A stretch of DNA of 64,000 nucleotides from Oscillospiraceae bacterium (GTDB taxonomy: Bacteria > Bacillota > Clostridia > Oscillospirales > Ruminococcaceae). The position numbers and the translations under genes were made by a program. Position 1 is the stretch's first letter. Every line of letters starts with the position of its first letter. This document shows, in pieces, positions 35,254-45,310 of this stretch. The notes below the pieces were generated by a model. It searched no databases. It was not told the DNA's origin and saw only the letters and a program-made list of their open reading frames with translations. The stretch spans positions 1 through 64,000 of the forward strand of contig JAEEIA010000094.1 in NCBI GenBank assembly GCA_016281125.1, written 5' to 3'.

Positions 35254-38200
35254 TCAATAATCCAGATCTCCGGTGACCCTGCGGTAAACAGCGTACAGAT
35301 CGAAGGGCTGCTGCGGCTGCTCGATCAGCTTCAGCAAAAGCCGGAGGTCATCGAATCCGACCATTTCGTCCGCATTGAGGTCGGCATTGCCGAGCAGAAG
35401 CCGATCCGGGGTCATACCGTTGAATTCGGTCAGATACTGTTGCAGAATCAGCACGTCATGGTAATCGGTGATGCCGTTTCCGCTGATATCGCCTTGCAGC
35501 GTCGAGTCAGAATTCATAATGATGTAATTGTAATCCGCTTTCTTGCAGATTTCAGCAACCGTACTGCCTTTTTCTGTGATGATCGTGATGTTTCTCGACA
35601 TGGGGACAAATGCAGCTTCGTCAATCGCAGTGACAGGAATCTTCTCTCCGGTTTCGGGATCCGTGACTGTATCCGGAATGAACAGTGCGCTGTTGATGTA
35701 ATTGACATCGAAAACTGTGGCTGTTCCGTTCTGAACCCGGTAGCTGATGCCGTCAACGAAAAGCTCTCTTGGTTCTTCCTCGTTCGAGATCAGGACGAAA
35801 TACGGTTTGATGCCGTCGAAAATCGGGAACATTCGCAGATAATTTCGTATGAGCAGAATTCTGATACTGTCGTTCTTTTTCAGATCGGTCACGTACTTCG
35901 TTTCTTTCATCAGCTTCGGGATATCCTCGTTGACATATAGCAGAATTGTAACGTCATTATCGTCAATGTCCGGAAGCGTCATCGTATAGCAGCCGTCTTC
36001 GGGCACCGTGAACAGATAGTTCTCAGCAAGCCCCGGATAAGGAATGATTGCCTCATTATATTCTGACGGTACATTGAGCTGAAGTGTCACCGGTGCCGGA
36101 TTTCCGTCAACCGGAACATTTGGTGTCTGTTCCGGATCAATCGGCGCATACCAGTAAAACAGATCCATTTCACCGACATATTTTCCGACACCGCGTACAG
36201 TGAGGCCGGCCTTTCCGATATATTTATCGCCGGACTTACAGAGCACGATGTAATCCTCGCCTTCGGTCAACTGCGTTTCGCCTGCTCTGAGTGTGATCTG
36301 CGGCTTCTCGCCGAACATGACAAGCTCTGTGATTTCTGCTTCAACGTCTTCTTCTAACAGGCAGAAATCGTCAATCAGGCTGAAAGTCACAGCAGTCGGT
36401 TCCTGGGCGTAATAATTTGTGACTGCAATCCGGTATTCCTCACCGGGCTTGACATCCAGAACGCTGTGTTGATCATACAGGCCGGAAACGCTTCCCGCAA
36501 TGCTGCCGTCTGCGCCCATGATACTGACCGTGGCAATCGGCAGACTGGTTTTGTGCAGGCAGTACCGATCTTTCTCCGGCTTCCATGTGAGCACAACCGG
36601 CTGTCCGGAGCTATCCGGAAGAACAGTGCAATCTCCTCCGGTATACGCGCTGCCTGTGGCTGTTTCCTTCGGCAGAATACAGAATGTCCGCCAGATTTCG
36701 CCGTAGAATGCGCCGATGCCCCTGATGCAGATATGATACTGTCCCGGCTCGGTCAGTGTTTCATCGCAGCAGATTTCATAATCCGTGCCCTCTGTCAGTT
36801 CCTGCTCGTCCATTGTAATCCGGAATGCTGGCTTGACCGGTTGGCCGGTATAGATCGCGTCACAGCTTATTACTTCGGTTCCTTCCATGGCATCTTTTAC
36901 TTTTTCCAGTGAGAAGAGCAGCGGCATTTTGAAGACATCCTGGTTGATACCGTTCAGCTTTCTGAGCGTATAGAATCCGGGATACAGCTCTGTTGTTTCC
37001 GTATCGGAAAGAAAAGTGACGCCGTACTGTTCAGAGTAAATTCCAGCGGAAAGATGTACGTTCCGATTGTCCGTGCGCAGTCTGACAGCGCATTCTTTAT
37101 CAATATAGATCGGATATTGAGCTACGTCGTTTTCAAATAAAATGACGTCACCGAGCCGGTATACCTGTGTCGGGTCTTTGCGCGAAGTGTCCGTTATGGT
37201 ATAATTCAGCGAATTTTTCGTTGTTTGCGGCGGTGTATCCAATGACCCCTCCGTAACCGTAAGGGTAAAGTCCTTGTTTTCGATGCGTTTATCGCCTTCA
37301 AACAGAACAGCGCGGAAAGTGAATGTGCCTGCTTCGTAATAATAGTCTGTCAGAGAACTGATATTGACGTCGCAGTATGCGCCGCTGTTTGTGACAATGG
37401 ACGGATCTACTTCCTGTTCGGCGCCGTTGACAATCTGGTACCATTTGATGGAGATGTCCGGATCCGCTACATATGCGCAGTAAAAAATGCACTCCTGCAT
37501 TGTGGGCGTTTTGATGTTCAGATTCTCAGTATAGAGCTTTTTCGTTTCAAAGTACGGAATTTCGGCTTTTTCAGCTGCCGTTCGGGCAGGGGAGTATTCC
37601 GGTCCGATGATATATCCGGCAGCCTTCCGTGTCCGGAACTCCGCTGATTTGAGCAATTCGGATACACGGAGGCAGCGGTTATCGTCGCTGCCCTGCACAA
37701 TCCTTTCTGCGTTCGGCAGCCAGATCATCGCTTCGTTGCTGTAAATGGTTTCCGGTTCCAGCACCTTGATATTCGGGAATACAAGCGGGCAGTTGGCGGA
37801 ATTGTATTTGACGGATTCGATCGTTGCCTCTTTCAGCCCGTTAAAAGTGAATTCTCGTTCGTCAGACTGTTCATCTTTATGAAAATCGCAGCAAAAGATC
37901 CCGTCTATGCCGATTTCAGTGACATTTGCAAGGAAATCAGCGGATTCCGGTTTACAGTTTATCATTGCACCCCGTTTGATCGCTGTAATGCCCGGTGCAA
38001 TGATCCGTTTCAGAGAAAGGCACTCACTGAAAACCGACTCCGGCAGAACTGTGACGGACAGCGGCATTGAGATCTCTTCGATGAAGCATTGAGTGAAAGC
38101 GAACGCGTCCAGTTCTTCCAGCTTTGGGAAGTCCACGACACCGCCGAGTCCTGAACGTGCAAATGCGTATTTTCCGATGCGGCGGACATTGTCGAAATTT

Positions 38201-40389
38201 CCTTCGTACATTGCAAGTCCTTGACAAGCTTCAAATGCGTGATCCGGAATCTCCGTGATTGTTTCGCCAAGACTCGGGATCCATGTCAATTTTGTACATT
38301 CGCAGAAGGTTCCGACGCCGATTTTTGTTAGAGTGCTGCTCAGATTCAGATTTGAAATGTCAGAATTCGCAAATGTGTAATCACTGAGCTCTGTGACGCC
38401 GTCAGCTCTCAGATAGAAAACACTGCACTGTGCAAACGCGTATGCGCCGAGCTTCGTGACGGAATCCGGAAGTATGACGGAGAAGATTCTGTTATTATTC
38501 TGAAATGCTCTGTCCCCGACTGCAAGAAGCGAACCGTCCGGGAATTCCGACGTCAGATCCAGCTTATGCAGAACGCCCCTGTATTCTGTCAGGACGCCGT
38601 CTATCACAGTGTAAGGATCGTCAATATCCTTTTCTCCGATACAGATATAGACGGATTCACTCTGACCGGACTCGCCGTTCATAAAAGCAGCCGCACGGAT
38701 AACTGCGCTCTCCGAAACAGTGAACGGATTCTGATAAAGCAAACCGTTTTCCGCAGTAGGTTCAGTGCCGTCAGTGGTGTACCGGATTTCCGCGTCCGGG
38801 ACATCTGTCCGGATCGAAACAGTCAGGGATTCCTCTGCCTGCCAGGTGTTATACTCGTATTCGCCGCCGGTGATAGTAACGGACGGTGCGGGAATAAACG
38901 TTTTTTGCTCGATCAGACCGCGCAGATTGATCATTCCGGCACCGTAGCAGTCGGCAGCAGTGACATTGTTCATTTCTTGGGGCGGATCCAGCTTCATTGC
39001 GGAATCGGAAAGCAGCTTGTGGATTTCGTCCATCTTCATATCCGGATTCGCAGAAAGCACGTCGCAGCATGCTGCGGTCGCAAACGGCGCAGCCATACTG
39101 GTGCCGCTCATTAAGACCAGATCTTCCGGTCCGCTGACAGCTGCGCTGAGGATATCAAACCCCGGTGCGGCAAAATCGACGAAAGGACCGATATTGCTGA
39201 ATACCGCCAGAGAATACAGATTCGGATCAGAATAATCCAGGTAGGACGGATCAGCAGATTCATTGTCAAGGTATGTGGCTGTAATGCAGAACGACTCTTC
39301 CAAACTGCCGGGGTTCGCATAATCTGCCTGATAGGATTCGTTTCCGCTGGATACACAGCAGGGGATATCGGCCGCAACTGCTTCGAGCATCGCTTCCCGC
39401 AGCAGCGGGGAATCGCCGTCGCCGCCAAGACTCATGCTGATGACGTCCGTCTTCTGTTCGATCGCGTGCATCATACCGCAGTAGAGCATCAGGTCAGAGC
39501 CGGTTCCTCTGTCTGAGATGACCTTGACCGGCATGATCTTGACCTGCTCCGGCGTGTTCTGGCAGATGATACCGGAGCAGTGCGTACCGTGCCCGAAAAC
39601 GTCGCGCAGCGGGATTTCACCCTCGGTGCAGTCAAGACCGTTTTCTGCGATACGCCCTTCAAACCAGCTGTGCTCCGCATAAATGCCCGTATCCAGAACC
39701 GCAGCCGTGATTTCCGGCAGCTCTTTGCGGTTCGCTTTGAGCCAGCTCAGATATTCCTCTGAGCCGATTGCATGATAGCCCCATGACTTGGTATTGTCAG
39801 ATTGTACGGTTTCTTGCTCCGGAACGGCGGACAAATCCGCACAGTAGTAACGGTCGGGCGCGGCATATTGGATCCGGCTGTCCTGCTGATAGGCGCAGTA
39901 TGCCGCATACGCTTCCGCCGTGCTGCTGTACTGAATGACGTGCAGATCGTGATAGCCCTCTGCGGTAACCGTGCCGCCCATCGGGTCGACACTTGTGCTG
40001 CTTCGTACAATCAGTCTGGCGGACTGGAACGGCGATTGCAGCTCGATGCTGCCGTCTGCGTTCTCATGTACCTCGTATCCGGATGCCTGATTTGCAGTCA
40101 CAGGGACACCGTCAGCGCAGACGGTGCCGCCGCTGACCGTAAAGCCTGCGTAGCTTTTGCCGACAGGCTTTCCATCCTGATAGAGCTGATCTGTTTTGGC
40201 ATCATAGCGCAGCGTTTCAAAAACTTCCTCCGGCTGATACGACGCGGAAGCGAGCAGCTCTGCGAAATCTGACGCGCTTCGTACCGTATCTGCTGCGCGC
40301 AGTCTGGATACGGGCAATCCGCCGCAGACGGACTGTGTCAGCAGTACAGCGGATGCGAGTGCTGCTGTGTGTTTATGCCTGAATGTCAT
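35254..40389 (-). CDS. Giant secreted subtilase with LRR and dockerin domains
   Basis: A 1711-residue protein. Signal peptide about 1-33; a propeptide-like region to about 190; a subtilisin-type (S8) domain at about 205-470 with the triad AVLDTG (Asp233), GHGTHCSG (His267) and SGTSMAAP (Ser431); a CHB_HEX-like beta domain around 505-590 (DGTEPT); BspA-type leucine-rich repeats around 640-960; several Ig-like or MBG-like beta domains; and a C-terminal type I dockerin (about 1628-1700) with GDISGNGIT and ADLNADEMV. This would be a cellulosome-attached protease or a protease-inhibitor-resistant binding protein. The ATG at 40389 has AGGAG at nine bases; a frame upstream to 40422 lacks one. Confidence 0.88.
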   Translation of the reverse strand: MTFRHKHTAALASAVLLTQSVCGGLPVSRLRAADTVRSASDFAELLASASYQPEEVFETLRYDAKTDQLYQDGKPVGKSYAGFTVSGGTVCADGVPVTANQASGYEVHENADGSIELQSPFQSARLIVRSSTSVDPMGGTVTAEGYHDLHVIQYSSTAEAYAAYCAYQQDSRIQYAAPDRYYCADLSAVPEQETVQSDNTKSWGYHAIGSEEYLSWLKANRKELPEITAAVLDTGIYAEHSWFEGRIAENGLDCTEGEIPLRDVFGHGTHCSGIICQNTPEQVKIMPVKVISDRGTGSDLMLYCGMMHAIEQKTDVISMSLGGDGDSPLLREAMLEAVAADIPCCVSSGNESYQADYANPGSLEESFCITATYLDNESADPSYLDYSDPNLYSLAVFSNIGPFVDFAAPGFDILSAAVSGPEDLVLMSGTSMAAPFATAACCDVLSANPDMKMDEIHKLLSDSAMKLDPPQEMNNVTAADCYGAGMINLRGLIEQKTFIPAPSVTITGGEYEYNTWQAEESLTVSIRTDVPDAEIRYTTDGTEPTAENGLLYQNPFTVSESAVIRAAAFMNGESGQSESVYICIGEKDIDDPYTVIDGVLTEYRGVLHKLDLTSEFPDGSLLAVGDRAFQNNNRIFSVILPDSVTKLGAYAFAQCSVFYLRADGVTELSDYTFANSDISNLNLSSTLTKIGVGTFCECTKLTWIPSLGETITEIPDHAFEACQGLAMYEGNFDNVRRIGKYAFARSGLGGVVDFPKLEELDAFAFTQCFIEEISMPLSVTVLPESVFSECLSLKRIIAPGITAIKRGAMINCKPESADFLANVTEIGIDGIFCCDFHKDEQSDEREFTFNGLKEATIESVKYNSANCPLVFPNIKVLEPETIYSNEAMIWLPNAERIVQGSDDNRCLRVSELLKSAEFRTRKAAGYIIGPEYSPARTAAEKAEIPYFETKKLYTENLNIKTPTMQECIFYCAYVADPDISIKWYQIVNGAEQEVDPSIVTNSGAYCDVNISSLTDYYYEAGTFTFRAVLFEGDKRIENKDFTLTVTEGSLDTPPQTTKNSLNYTITDTSRKDPTQVYRLGDVILFENDVAQYPIYIDKECAVRLRTDNRNVHLSAGIYSEQYGVTFLSDTETTELYPGFYTLRKLNGINQDVFKMPLLFSLEKVKDAMEGTEVISCDAIYTGQPVKPAFRITMDEQELTEGTDYEICCDETLTEPGQYHICIRGIGAFYGEIWRTFCILPKETATGSAYTGGDCTVLPDSSGQPVVLTWKPEKDRYCLHKTSLPIATVSIMGADGSIAGSVSGLYDQHSVLDVKPGEEYRIAVTNYYAQEPTAVTFSLIDDFCLLEEDVEAEITELVMFGEKPQITLRAGETQLTEGEDYIVLCKSGDKYIGKAGLTVRGVGKYVGEMDLFYWYAPIDPEQTPNVPVDGNPAPVTLQLNVPSEYNEAIIPYPGLAENYLFTVPEDGCYTMTLPDIDDNDVTILLYVNEDIPKLMKETKYVTDLKKNDSIRILLIRNYLRMFPIFDGIKPYFVLISNEEEPRELFVDGISYRVQNGTATVFDVNYINSALFIPDTVTDPETGEKIPVTAIDEAAFVPMSRNITIITEKGSTVAEICKKADYNYIIMNSDSTLQGDISGNGITDYHDVLILQQYLTEFNGMTPDRLLLGNADLNADEMVGFDDLRLLLKLIEQPQQPFDLYAVYRRVTGDLDY

Positions 40390-40453
40390 TTGAATCATCT
40401 CCTGTTCCATGAATATTGTCAATGTCAGATATGCTTAAAACGGGTGCTTACAG

Positions 40454-41649: not shown

Positions 41650-42906
41650 TTAGAGCTCCGGATCCCGTACCTCAAATTCTGCGGCTCTTTTCTGCCACTT
41701 TACATCGACCGTCAGATCGACCAGCGTCCCGTCCGGCGTAAATTCCTCGGAAAAGATTTTGCCCTCCTCGCGCAGAAGCTGCAAAAAGCTACCCTCTGTA
41801 TAGGGGATGCAGAGCCGCATGCGCTTTGCAGTCTGCGGCAGATGCGTACAGATTGCACGCAGCAGTTCCTCCGTCCCGGTGCCGTTTTTGGCGCTGATCC
41901 ATACCGTATCCGCATCATTATGCTGATTGAGGTCTACAAGATCTGCCTTATTTAGCACATGAATCTGAGGAAATTCCGCGCAGCCGAGGTCGTTGAGCAG
42001 ATCCTGTGTAATCTGCATCCGCTCGCGGATATCCGGTTCCGATGCATCCATCACATGCAGAATCAGGTCGGCCTGTGCTGTTTCCTCCAGCGTGGATCGG
42101 AACGCCTCCACCAGATGATGCGGCAGGCGTCGGATTAGTCCGACCGTATCCGAAAGCAGAACGCTGCGTCCGTCCGGCAGCTCCAGTGCCCGTGCCGTGA
42201 CGTCCAGTGTCGCAAATAATTTGTTTTCCGCAAGAACCCCCGCATCCGTCAGCATGTTGAACAGTGTGGATTTTCCGGCATTTGTATATCCGACAATCGC
42301 AACGGTCAGAATGCCGTCCTTTTTTCTGCGGCTCCCGAGAAATGTCCGGTGCTGTTCCATATCCTTAAGCGCATGCTCCAGTGTTGCAATCCGCGTGCGG
42401 ATATGCCGCCGGTCGGTTTCCAGCTTGGTTTCGCCCGGGCCGCGCGTGCCGATGCCGCCGCCGAGTCTGGAAAGTGCCGTGCCGCTGCCGGTCAGTCTGC
42501 TAAGCCGGTATTTATACTGTGCCAGCGAAACCTGCACCTTGCCTTCGGCAGTCCGGGCGCGTCCGGCAAAAATGTCAAGAATCAGCATGGTGCGGTCAAT
42601 GACCTTGCAGTCTGTGGCATCCGTCAGATTGCGCAGCTGAATTCCGGTCAGCTCGGTGTCAAAGATCAGCATGTCGGCTTCAAGTGCTTTCGCCAGCTCG
42701 GTGACCTCTTCCAGCTTGCCGCTGCCGATGCAGGTTGCCGCCTCGGGATTGCTCCGGGCCTGAATCACACTGCGCAGCACCTCGCACCCGGCTGTTTCAG
42801 CAAGCGCGGCCAGCTCATCTATCGAAATCTGCGCGTCATATTCTCCGGTATCCAGGCCGACCAGAATGACCTTTGGCGCGGACACCTCCTGTAAGTTATC
42901 GTGCAT
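41650..42906 (-). CDS. hflX: Ribosome-associated GTPase HflX
   Basis: A 418-residue GTPase: HflX N-terminal domain (about 1-195, with RSNPEAATCIGSGKLEE and the GGIGTRGPGETKLE linker), then the G domain with GYTNAGKST (G1), DTVG (G3) and NKADL (G4). HflX splits stalled or stressed ribosomes. It starts 12 bases past the stop of the radical SAM gene with an AAAGGCGG site, so it is the third gene of that operon. The family normally stands alone or beside hfq; its coupling to a peptide-maturation pair is unusual. Confidence 0.93.
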   Translation of the reverse strand: MHDNLQEVSAPKVILVGLDTGEYDAQISIDELAALAETAGCEVLRSVIQARSNPEAATCIGSGKLEEVTELAKALEADMLIFDTELTGIQLRNLTDATDCKVIDRTMLILDIFAGRARTAEGKVQVSLAQYKYRLSRLTGSGTALSRLGGGIGTRGPGETKLETDRRHIRTRIATLEHALKDMEQHRTFLGSRRKKDGILTVAIVGYTNAGKSTLFNMLTDAGVLAENKLFATLDVTARALELPDGRSVLLSDTVGLIRRLPHHLVEAFRSTLEETAQADLILHVMDASEPDIRERMQITQDLLNDLGCAEFPQIHVLNKADLVDLNQHNDADTVWISAKNGTGTEELLRAICTHLPQTAKRMRLCIPYTEGSFLQLLREEGKIFSEEFTPDGTLVDLTVDVKWQKRAAEFEVRDPEL

Positions 42907-42918
42907 ACAGCACCGCCT

Positions 42919-44118
42919 TTATTCAGATTCTTTGAGCAGTGCGGAAATGAATGCATCCGGATCTTGCCAGATGCCGCGCTGTTCGTCATAGGTACAGTAA
43001 TACGGTTTTTCACTAGGAGAGTCAGAAAGCGAATCCGGGCGGCAGTCGGGACAGGCGTACCGGAATTCACAGTCCCTGCACCCGCTGACCTGATCCTTAT
43101 TCAGCCCGAGTACAGCAGGGGAGAGCACCTCTGCAAGCGACCTGTTTCGCAGATTGCCGTGCCGGAGCCGCCGTTCCATCACGCACGGATACACGTTCAG
43201 ATCTGCCGCAACATAGATCTTTCGGGAGAAGCAGGGATTCCCGCTGACAGCAGATGCAACGCGTCGGGGATGCAGTGGGCGGAGGAATATATCTTTTGTG
43301 ATGCATTTCTCGCGCAGCAGAGCGCTGTCCAGCAGCGAAAGGCATCCCCTGCCCGACATCCGGACAATATCTGCGCGTGTATCCAGCTGATACGGCTTGG
43401 AGCCGCGCGCGCCGATCCGGATATTTTTCATCCGGACGGCATTTGTATGATACGGGATTCCGTATTGCCGCAGCAGGGAGAGCGCCTGTTCGGTTTTCCG
43501 GTGTGAGCCGCCGATTCCCGTGACAGTATCATGCATATCGCTTTCGTAGGAGTACACAGAAAGCGAAACGGACGCATCAGCTTTTTTTAGCGCCTTGCAG
43601 ACAGGATCTGTCAGCAGCGTGCCGTTGGTGTATAACGAAACCGAATCGAAATGATCGGCGGCCGTTTTCAGCAGCAGCTCACATTCCGGGTGGCAGAGCG
43701 GTTCACCGCCGATCAGCTGCACGGAACGGATACCGTAATCAGCCATCTTTTCGCAGACCAGTTTGAAATCCGGTTCAGATATGAAAATCTGTTGCTGTGT
43801 ACCGTTATAGCAGTGAATGCAGCGTAGATTGCAGACCGTGCAGACCTCAATCCATGCGGAATACGGTTTCGGAATATACCGGAGCGTACCGATATCAGGG
43901 ATTTCGCCGCATCCTTCGGTAAGCAGCTCCGCCTGTGTCAGCTGCGCGATGACAGCCTGCTCGCCTTTTGTAAAAGAGGCACCCGGCTCGGTGATACAGC
44001 GGCGGATCAGCGCAGACGTATCCTTTCCGATGTGCCAGAGCTTTTGGCGCCTGAGATCGTACAGGCAGTCCTTTGCCTTCCCGCTGACAGGATAAACACC
44101 GTCATTCAGCCGGAGCAT
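42919..44118 (-). CDS. Radical SAM/SPASM peptide-modifying enzyme
   Basis: A 399-residue radical SAM protein. The first 85 residues resemble a peptide-binding (RRE-like) segment. Cys96, Cys100 and Cys103 (CNLRCIHC) form the SAM-cleaving cluster motif, and LIGGEPL follows as the SAM-binding block. The C-terminal SPASM part holds NVYPC, then GCRDCEFRYACPDC, supplying ligands for auxiliary clusters. This architecture is that of RiPP maturases that install thioether or C-C links. The gene begins inside the end of the six-Cys peptide frame (17-base overlap at ATG 44118), which argues for that peptide being its substrate. Earlier in-frame ATGs (44136, 44160) have weaker ribosome sites. Confidence 0.87.
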   Translation of the reverse strand: MLRLNDGVYPVSGKAKDCLYDLRRQKLWHIGKDTSALIRRCITEPGASFTKGEQAVIAQLTQAELLTEGCGEIPDIGTLRYIPKPYSAWIEVCTVCNLRCIHCYNGTQQQIFISEPDFKLVCEKMADYGIRSVQLIGGEPLCHPECELLLKTAADHFDSVSLYTNGTLLTDPVCKALKKADASVSLSVYSYESDMHDTVTGIGGSHRKTEQALSLLRQYGIPYHTNAVRMKNIRIGARGSKPYQLDTRADIVRMSGRGCLSLLDSALLREKCITKDIFLRPLHPRRVASAVSGNPCFSRKIYVAADLNVYPCVMERRLRHGNLRNRSLAEVLSPAVLGLNKDQVSGCRDCEFRYACPDCRPDSLSDSPSEKPYYCTYDEQRGIWQDPDAFISALLKESE

Positions 44119-44257
44119 CGCCGCTTTCCGGTTCATCGACAAAATAAGGCCAGCATTCATTTTCCCGCTGATCCGGCTGGCAGGGGCAGTCCGGAACACA
44201 GGTTCCCGCAGCAGTACACTGCACTGCGGAATCGGTCAGGCATTCCAGTTCAAACAT
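44102..44257 (-). CDS. Six-cysteine peptide, candidate radical SAM substrate
   Basis: A 51-residue peptide starting at an ATG with a strong GAGGAG site seven bases upstream, preceded by its own promoter. Six Cys lie at 6, 14, 20, 24, 26 and 35, inside a 30-residue span; the tail (36-51) is acidic and Cys-free. It overlaps the radical SAM gene by 17 bases. The Cys spacing differs from the SCIFF peptide family, so it may be a new type. The likely product is a ranthipeptide/sactipeptide-like crosslinked peptide, or a peptide carrying an unrelated modification. No transporter or protease gene is adjacent. The leader-core boundary is not evident. Confidence 0.72.
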   Translation of the reverse strand: MFELECLTDSAVQCTAAGTCVPDCPCQPDQRENECWPYFVDEPESGDAPAE

Positions 44258-44299
44258 GGTATTCTCCTCTCTGACTGTGACAGATTGCTTTCGCTTTTC

Positions 44300-44328
44300 A
44301 GTATAGCATATTTTCCGAAAAAAAGCAA
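44300..44328 (-). promoter_or_regulatory. Promoter of the peptide-radical SAM-hflX operon
   Basis: Minus-strand TTGCTT (44323-44328), 17-bp spacer, TGC-TATACT (44300-44305). Confidence 0.78.
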
Positions 44329-44431: not shown

Positions 44432-45310
44432 ATGAAAAAGAACATCAGAAAACTGATCGGGATGCTGAGTGCGGCGCTCACAGGCTGCGCAATGTGTTTA
44501 TCCGTGATGGCTGAGGCAGATTATAAGCTGATCGGATATAATGACGGCGAACTGGATCGCAGCTGTGTCAATATTGCAGGCGTCAGATACAGCAGCGTGA
44601 ATCCGCGCCTTGATAATACCGTTGAATACAGAGTGGATATTCTGAATAATCTGTCAGGATTCGCGGACATCAAGGTTGCACTGTACTATCCGGAAGGACT
44701 TGAAGTCATATTGAATGAGGATGGAGAGCCTGCAAGCGGAGGCGACATAACCTTACGCTGGCAAACGGAATCTGTCCTTGATACTGAGGAACGGTGTGTC
44801 GTTTTCAGCTGTAACTGTGAAAAAAACAATAAGTATGAAGGTACACTTTTTTCTGTGAAGTTTCAGGTGCCGTTTGATGCCAAAACATTCGACAAGTATT
44901 ACCTGAAGCCCGAAGTGCTTACATTGAACAATCTCAGCGGTGACCTGCCGTACAATATTATAGACGGCTATATTGAGGTTGGGGCATATCACGATGATTT
45001 CAGCTTTGACAAGGGTGACATGAACTTCTCGCATGGTGTTGATGTCAGTGATGCACAGATGATTCTCAAGGAATACGTCAAAACCTTGTCCGGTCAGGAA
45101 TCAACTTTGCATGCTGATCACAGGCAGCTGGCCGATATCGACGAAAACGGAACGGTTGATGTTGTGGATGCACAGCTCTTGCTGAAATACTGCACGGAAA
45201 GAACAGCGCTGAACGATATTACATGGAAGCAGATTCTCGGGAAAAAGCCCCAATATCCATCTGTACACATTTCCAGCGATACGTTTAATTATATATGGGG
45301 AATCAGATAA
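44432..45310 (+). CDS. Cohesin-like plus dockerin adaptor scaffoldin
   Basis: A 292-residue secreted protein. Signal peptide about 1-28; residues 60-185 fit a cohesin fold (VEYRVDILNNLSGFADIKVALYY start, EGTLFSVKF middle, IIDGYIEV end), and residues 195-255 a type I dockerin with GDMNFSHGVDVSD and ADIDENGTVDVVD. In Ruminococcus cellulosomes small cohesin-dockerin proteins act as adaptors that change which enzymes join the scaffold, so an adaptor function is likely. The cohesin is a diverged match; the dockerin is firm. AGGAGG precedes the ATG. Confidence 0.78.
   Translation: MKKNIRKLIGMLSAALTGCAMCLSVMAEADYKLIGYNDGELDRSCVNIAGVRYSSVNPRLDNTVEYRVDILNNLSGFADIKVALYYPEGLEVILNEDGEPASGGDITLRWQTESVLDTEERCVVFSCNCEKNNKYEGTLFSVKFQVPFDAKTFDKYYLKPEVLTLNNLSGDLPYNIIDGYIEVGAYHDDFSFDKGDMNFSHGVDVSDAQMILKEYVKTLSGQESTLHADHRQLADIDENGTVDVVDAQLLLKYCTERTALNDITWKQILGKKPQYPSVHISSDTFNYIWGIR

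Follow-up and report, generated by a model that had tools for sequence, protein, structure and literature searches.

A short cysteine-rich reading frame that runs into the start of a radical SAM gene raises the question of whether the two genes encode a precursor peptide and its maturase and, if so, what the enzyme does to the peptide. One such pair lies in a 64,000-nucleotide stretch of DNA from an Oscillospiraceae bacterium (contig JAEEIA010000094.1, positions 1 to 64,000; referred to here as the window), where a first-pass annotation had described it as a six-cysteine RiPP precursor overlapping a radical SAM/SPASM enzyme. The reading that we favor, with a probability of about 0.55, is that the maturase is guided by a leader and would form thioether bonds from the Cys residues of Cys-x-Pro (CxP) motifs in the peptide, perhaps to Asp at position +3.

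Both genes are on the minus strand. The peptide gene (44105-44257, ATG at 44257, stop codon at 44102-44104) encodes 51 residues with Cys at positions 6, 14, 20, 24, 26 and 35, as the open reading frame had been read originally, and the strong ribosome binding site claimed for it is present as the Shine-Dalgarno sequence AGAGGAG, 6 nucleotides 5' of the ATG (44264-44270). The end of the peptide gene, stop codon included, shares 17 bases (44102-44118) with the start of the gene for the 399-residue maturase (42922-44118, ATG at 44118, stop codon at 42919-42921). This overlap holds up in comparison with relatives, since the N-termini of most related enzymes align with the Met at 44118 and the same 17-base overlap is found in four of the eight loci known from the genus. 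Within the peptide, we distinguish a leader (residues 1-19; 44201-44257) that carries the E-x-L-T motif common to the family peptides, here ECLT, from a core (residues 20-39; 44141-44200; CVPDCPCQPDQRENECWPYF) that has three CxP motifs and four conserved Cys residues. The peptide gene likely has its own promoter, as had been proposed, given that all eight genus loci align at an extended -10 element (TGnTATAmT). In the window, the probable promoter (44300-44328) consists of TTGCTT (44328-44323), 17 nucleotides, and TATACT (44305-44300), with the extended -10 TG upstream. The proposal gains nothing from a promoter pattern scan of the window, however, which returned one site against 1.4 expected, and not at the peptide gene.

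We searched 30 genomes of the genus for the two genes. The maturase was found in eight of them (search threshold E <= 1e-40, matches at E <= 2.8e-72), and the peptide was found in the same eight (E <= 1.7e-14), the next-best peptide match in the 30 genomes having an E value of 0.034. In all eight loci the peptide is encoded directly upstream of the maturase; the first small-ORF screen missed the G024 peptide owing to a long upstream open frame, and this locus was then read from stop to stop. The core consensus for the genus is CVPDCPCQPDQRE(N/S)EC(W/F)PYF. Lack of conservation of the small ORF in related strains, which had been named as grounds for doubting the pair, was not seen: the window core differs from those of the seven relatives by zero to two amino acids, including one, two and one differences from G001, G028 and G002, respectively. 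Compared with either G020 or G025, the core shows six synonymous and no non-synonymous codon changes. That every one of the changed codons is synonymous in these two comparisons indicates that the peptide ORF is coding beyond chance.

The enzyme behaves differently. Maturase identity between the window and G020, G024 and G025 is 53-63%, while that of the adjoining HflX is 86-91%, which suggests that the enzyme drifts while the peptide core stays nearly frozen. At the relative loci L036 and L037, the Pta and GH9 proteins are 98% and 94% identical, respectively. The six Cys residues do not fare as well as the core. Cys 20, 24, 26 and 35 are kept in all eight genus peptides, but C6 is absent from two of the eight and C14 is present in the window peptide only. 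We have therefore dropped the six-Cys pattern as a defining trait; the conserved feature of the peptides is CxP.

The pair extends well beyond the genus. Scanning 84,980 species at one genome per species yielded 13 loci, from which a Woesearchaeota match (L048; 23% identity over part of the enzyme) was dropped as non-family. Searches at E <= 1e-60, with the own or query genome counted, matched one genome in the order (394 genomes), two in the phylum (398), one in the family of G554 (20), one in the family of the Phocaeicola locus (251), three in the order of L038 (249) and six in the family of the Synergistaceae locus (81). Family members can be missed by searches at this threshold, since few candidates were scored per genome (about four in the order and phylum searches, about seven in the Phocaeicola-family and L038-order searches). 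With L039 and L061, which come from one genome, counted once, there are 24 distinct loci: eight from the genus, ten more from the species scan, one from the phylum search and five more from the Synergistaceae-family search. Their distribution is patchy and covers Bacillota, Synergistota, Lentisphaerota and Bacteroidota. Our tree has weak deep forks and carries a long-branch warning, so we draw no claim of transfer between phyla from it. A mobile-element reading was discarded, as the enzyme has no match in plasmids at 1e-30 or in phages at 1e-20.

At 21 of the 24 loci, a peptide with at least three CxP motifs is encoded within 500 bp of the enzyme gene on the same strand, either upstream or downstream, and these peptides span three phyla. 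By comparison, when 27 non-family radical SAM loci were searched over their full length on both strands, one had an ORF with at least three CxP motifs. The two Bacteroidota loci each encode a basic peptide in which CxP occurs once (CCPGEC), and no CxP peptide was found at L066, a locus with 190 bp upstream. When the two single-CxP loci are counted, a linked small peptide is present at 23 of the 24 loci.

In the 26 peptides of the family, which are not independent since several are near copies, CxP holds 118 of the 135 Cys residues found after residue 15, against 22.9 expected from shuffled sequences. Likewise, 23 of the 26 peptides have a leader motif, [EK]x[LFM][TS], within their first 12 residues, against 1.5 expected from shuffles. 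For 12 of these peptides (window, G002, G020, G024, G025, G028, L038, L041, L061, L062, L064a and L065b), we chose as the start an internal ATG that precedes the leader motif; with those 12 left out, CxP is found at 65 of 72 Cys residues and the leader motif in 11 of 14 peptides. The leader motif is absent from the two Bacteroidota peptides and from the peptide of L044 (Lachnospiraceae), a locus whose enzyme has stops or frame breaks and entered the alignments as the part open in one frame. The 24 acidic peptides have net charges of -6 to -18, three to nine CxP sites each, and a first CxP at residues 16-21. Two different CxP peptides, with up to nine CxP motifs each, precede a single maturase at L064 and L065 (both from the Synergistaceae-family search) and at L050 (G554). 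The basic peptides of the Bacteroidota loci L045 and L046 have CCPGECIAGPGSPITR in place of CxP repeats and are perhaps a separate subtype.

Taken together, the co-occurrence of peptide and maturase, their adjacency, the nearly frozen core, and the leader and core motifs shared across phyla strongly support the original assignment of this locus as a RiPP precursor with its radical SAM/SPASM maturase, and the maturase very probably modifies the peptide whose gene it overlaps. The same observations make it very unlikely that the peptide is instead a small metal- or cluster-binding protein or a regulator, with the enzyme acting on some other substrate. Acidic, Cys-rich peptides with no exporter recognized beside them and a core frozen like a binding site would suit that reading, but it does not anticipate that the same eight of the 30 genus genomes would have peptide and maturase, side by side, nor that CxP peptides would adjoin 21 of 24 enzymes in three phyla on either side of the enzyme gene.

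We examined the maturase sequence for features that bear on its chemistry. Pfam identifies a Radical_SAM domain (E 1.4e-19) and, at 21.3 bits (E 3.3e-4), a SPASM domain that falls just below the cut-off of 21.5; the SPASM assignment, made earlier from sequence, is sustained by seven Cys residues. The CX3CX2C radical SAM cluster motif (C96, C100 and C103; 43810-43833) has its Cys residues in 17 of 17 aligned enzymes. In the SPASM domain (42994-43233), which contains C296, C312, C347, C350, C356, C359 and C375, six Cys residues are kept in all 17 enzymes and the seventh in all 16 rows without a gap, and the alignment of 17 enzymes has no eighth conserved SPASM Cys. The motif here, CX2CX5CX2C, is one residue shorter than the one printed in PMC6231123. 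An AlphaFold model of the maturase (mean pLDDT 88.7, pTM 0.85) places a strand-helix domain at the N-terminus, followed by the barrel and then SPASM. The N-terminal segment (approximately residues 1-75; 43894-44118), earlier likened to peptide-binding domains, has no Pfam or NCBIfam profile match, but the order of its strands and helices in the model (block pLDDT 88-96) suggests an RRE-like fold, and it is predicted to bind the leader. The best fold matches include SkfB, SuiB, CteB, anSME and TigE, the last of which we take to be a RiPP enzyme. With TM-scores of 0.46-0.55 and rmsd values of approximately 7-15 A, the kinship with these proteins is one of architecture. Sequence matches to the thioether synthases AlbA, StsB and SkfB reflect general radical SAM similarity, mostly in the core domain, and predicting fold or function from similarity networks is difficult in these enzymes (PMC6231123).

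These features suggest the following course of events. The short acidic precursor would be translated first, and translation of the maturase would be coupled to it through the gene overlap, a layout that is conserved. The leader would consist of the first 16-20 residues, E-x-L-T motif included, and be bound by the predicted RRE-like domain, as the model and the motif suggest. The radical SAM cluster would then generate a 5'-deoxyadenosyl radical, and the seven SPASM Cys residues would hold two auxiliary clusters, as in AlbA, which has seven conserved SPASM Cys residues where anSME has eight (PMC5682303). An open auxiliary-cluster site may hold the thiolate of a substrate Cys, as does the open Aux I site of CteB (PMC6231123); seven Cys residues are no proof of such a site, since other enzymes use a non-Cys ligand (PMC6231123). 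Finally, small thioether rings would be closed by bonding the sulfur of each CxP Cys to a neighboring residue through one of its carbons; where the peptide has Asp at +3, that residue is the most likely acceptor. For the window peptide, we predict two to four links, each of which would lower the mass by 2.016 Da.

We favor thioether formation because the Cys residues are conserved, the cluster count is like that of AlbA, Asp or Glu is found at +3 (62 of 118 CxP motifs) or +4 (after 32 Cys residues of the family peptides), and PapB accepts zero to six intervening residues in its Cys-Asp spacing (PMC9413430). At the other 56 of the 118 sites, CxP is followed by a residue other than Asp or Glu, so that the peptides show no fixed acceptor. 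This runs against the thioether reading, as do the main spacing, which is CX2D and not the CX3D of PapB, and the two Bacteroidota peptides, which are basic, with one CxP and without the leader motif.

The CxP motif itself provides a clean rival, as it recalls the sulfatase code (C/S)XPXR. The maturase might act like anSME, also a SPASM-class enzyme whose substrate motif contains Cys-x-Pro, and convert each CxP Cys to formylglycine (or a thioaldehyde), yielding a multi-aldehyde peptide. The invariant Cys with Pro two positions on agrees with the sulfatase signature (PMC8746622), and the best fold matches include structures of anSME. However, Arg is present at +4 in only 1 of the 118 CxP motifs, and the eight SPASM Cys residues used by anSME (PMC5682303) compare with seven conserved here; the near absence of Arg and the lack of an eighth Cys lower the odds of formylglycine, and on the same two counts we do not place the maturase among the anSMEs. 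On the SPASM piece, the TIGR03942 sulfatase-maturase model reaches 12.1 of 349.45 bits. In addition, anSME is not known to have a leader-binding domain. We therefore consider conversion to formylglycine quite improbable. The two readings are separable by mass, as formylglycine would cost 17.99 Da per site and a thioether 2.016 Da, and the CxP family raises the question of whether a sulfatase-like Cys-x-Pro motif has been reused in RiPPs.

A modification that leaves the Cys sulfur aside is possible but unlikely. SPASM enzymes perform several non-sulfur reactions, and the maturase could form a C-C cross-link of the cyclophane type, for instance with the aromatic residues of CWPY or CFPY, or carry out epimerization or another reaction, with the Cys residues later forming disulfides or binding metal. 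The top fold matches include SuiB, an enzyme that joins two side chains by a cross-link (PMC6231123), and 19 of the 118 CxP motifs have Tyr or Trp as the next residue. What is kept across phyla, however, is Cys and Pro and not the aromatic residues, and the match to the cyclophane model NF041707 reaches 38 of 445 bits.

No NCBIfam model names either the peptide or the enzyme. The peptide has no NCBIfam match at E <= 10, and the best score of the window enzyme is approximately 71.5-71.8 bits against a cut-off of 500. The pair resembles the SCIFF/CteB/Tte1186 type (TIGR03973) in that a short Cys-rich precursor accompanies a radical SAM-SPASM enzyme, with an RRE that is predicted in the present case, and CteB is a top fold match, but it differs from the SCIFF ranthipeptides in having CxP repeats in place of the SCIFF pattern. 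The one locus that TIGR03973 detects in the same genome (E <= 0.001) is on a different contig and encodes a SCIFF peptide (L077; G000:C16:125797-125925) that scores 78.5 bits against a cut-off of 50. The earlier judgment that the window peptide is not SCIFF is therefore correct, and this genome holds at least two Cys-rich precursor systems. The ranthipeptide rule TIGR03973, as listed in PMC13289728, would miss the CxP family.

Freyrasin (PapA/PapB; NF047865) shares repeated Cys residues with Asp a few residues on and several sites per peptide, but its spacing is CX3D (PMC9413430), in contrast to the mainly CX2D spacing and obligate Pro seen here, and the family enzymes reach 66.0 bits at best against a cut-off of 340. 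CcpM (TIGR04068) is partially similar to some relatives over the N-terminal and radical SAM parts; these relatives score 48.8-63.8 bits against a cut-off of 500, and CcpM is not among the best 25 of the 65 NCBIfam matches of the window enzyme. The C-terminal piece is matched best by the grasp-with-SPASM maturase model (TIGR04193; E 4.4e-14), but that model scores 52.7 of 175 bits and there is no ATP-grasp gene among the two neighbors of the pair. The other families among the best 25 of 65 matches fall away by score.

FibroRumin, which the first-pass annotation had singled out for comparison, is a Cys-rich peptide and radical SAM pair. Matches were read by name, with no accession, and the name is absent from all matches of the peptide, the N-terminal piece and the SPASM piece and from the best 25 of 65 enzyme matches; the word is likewise absent from the literature searched, a body of text with most subscription papers outside its scope. 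SCIFF, CcpM and PapB are also pairs of this general kind, and the N-terminal two thirds of three relatives partly resemble CcpM (60-64 bits), which might point to a divergent member of one of these four families. Given scores this far below the CcpM and PapB cut-offs, a peptide that matches nothing in NCBIfam, and a SCIFF that sits elsewhere in the genome, NCBIfam membership is refuted for SCIFF, CcpM and PapB, and we regard a divergent member of any of the four as extremely unlikely.

Among published pathways, a likeness is seen in Cluster 59 of Kostenko et al. 2022 (PMC9062424), who list 22 unreported pathways; it pairs an uncharacterized radical SAM enzyme with a peptide whose Asp-Cys motif is repeated up to six times. 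Its locus differs in also having a recombinase, and the available text names no Pro; the Asp-Cys repeat pathway could overlap the CxP family. Six peptide strings of the family occur in no paper of the literature searched, and no description of CxP or Cys-Xaa-Pro radical SAM systems, of their Cys-rich targets, or of Synergistaceae radical SAM RiPPs is found among the matches listed, most subscription papers being outside both searches. The CxP-repeat peptides constitute a scattered family without a name, and the pair represents a modified-peptide family for which NCBIfam holds no model of either partner.

We named neighboring genes by family search (two window neighbors and nine genes of relatives, then three more of the window and one of a relative). 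The gene 12 bases after the maturase stop is hflX (41650-42906, minus strand; TIGR03156, 456.6 bits), which has the same order in three relatives. It adjoins the pair in four species and not in three others with a visible downstream side, so the link is probably positional; hflX is perhaps a co-transcribed neighbor but is not thought to be part of the system, and HflX was rejected as a functional partner. Beyond hflX lie the phosphate acetyltransferase gene pta and then a gene for a subtilase with leucine-rich repeats. This 1722-residue protein (35254-40422, minus strand) has repeats of the BspA type and, by eye, a dockerin-like end, and L036 and L037 have a homologue at the corresponding place in the gene order. 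On its other side, the pair is flanked by a gene for a divergent dockerin protein of 292 residues (44432-45310, plus strand; Pfam dockerin) with a start that resembles a signal peptide by eye. With hflX and the dockerin gene as its flanks, the window pair has no directly adjoining exporter or protease, as the annotation had it, and among the genes named by family search no exporter was recognized directly beside the pair in any locus.

A link between the dockerin protein and the system is possible. The protein is 24% identical over most of its length to a cohesin-dockerin protein of G028, but itself has no Pfam cohesin match. A GH9 enzyme is also encoded on this side of the pair. In G024, an ORF that looks by eye like a lipoprotein lies between the pair and the dockerin gene, and G025 has no homologue of the dockerin gene within 1.5 kb. 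In G001, G028 and G011, a cohesin-dockerin gene overlaps the end of the maturase gene by 4 bases (L067:8989-9750, L068:2222-2983 and L069:8009-8824). Pfam finds cohesin in all three proteins and dockerin above the cut-off in two, with the dockerin of G001 below it. This arrangement is possibly a combined RiPP and cellulosome operon. In a more speculative and improbable proposal, CxP would be a recognition code of its own and one maturase family would modify every CxP Cys, at three to nine sites, by chemistry new to RiPPs (formylglycine or thioaldehyde, or a sulfur-carbon ring over Pro). Under this proposal, the product in cellulosome-bearing Ruminococcus might attach to the cellulosome or be sensed there, given the three species in which the end of the maturase gene is overlapped by a cohesin-dockerin gene.

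For the thioether product that we favor, the pattern of conservation suggests a function in the producing cell. Eight related species share a core that has hardly changed, which argues for a conserved role of the peptide and against a bacteriocin arms race. Because the core barely varies between species and no exporter is recognized beside the pair, the product probably serves the physiology of its producer, as a signal or in a redox or metal function, and not attack. SCIFF ranthipeptides have a reported connection with quorum sensing and sporulation in clostridia (PMC8102284). With three to nine CxP repeats per acidic peptide and a clear leader, the family also offers a test bed for the action of one enzyme at many sites.

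Some loci carry further genes after the maturase. The next gene found after the maturase in Phocaeicola (L045:7355-9241) encodes a GNAT-radical SAM fusion, and a GNAT protein is encoded after the maturase in Avimuribaculum (L046:7197-7736). In Blautia (L043:7203-8192), a second radical SAM gene directly follows the maturase gene, overlapping it if the first start is used, and the Blautia peptide, which has seven CxP motifs, may therefore receive two modifications.
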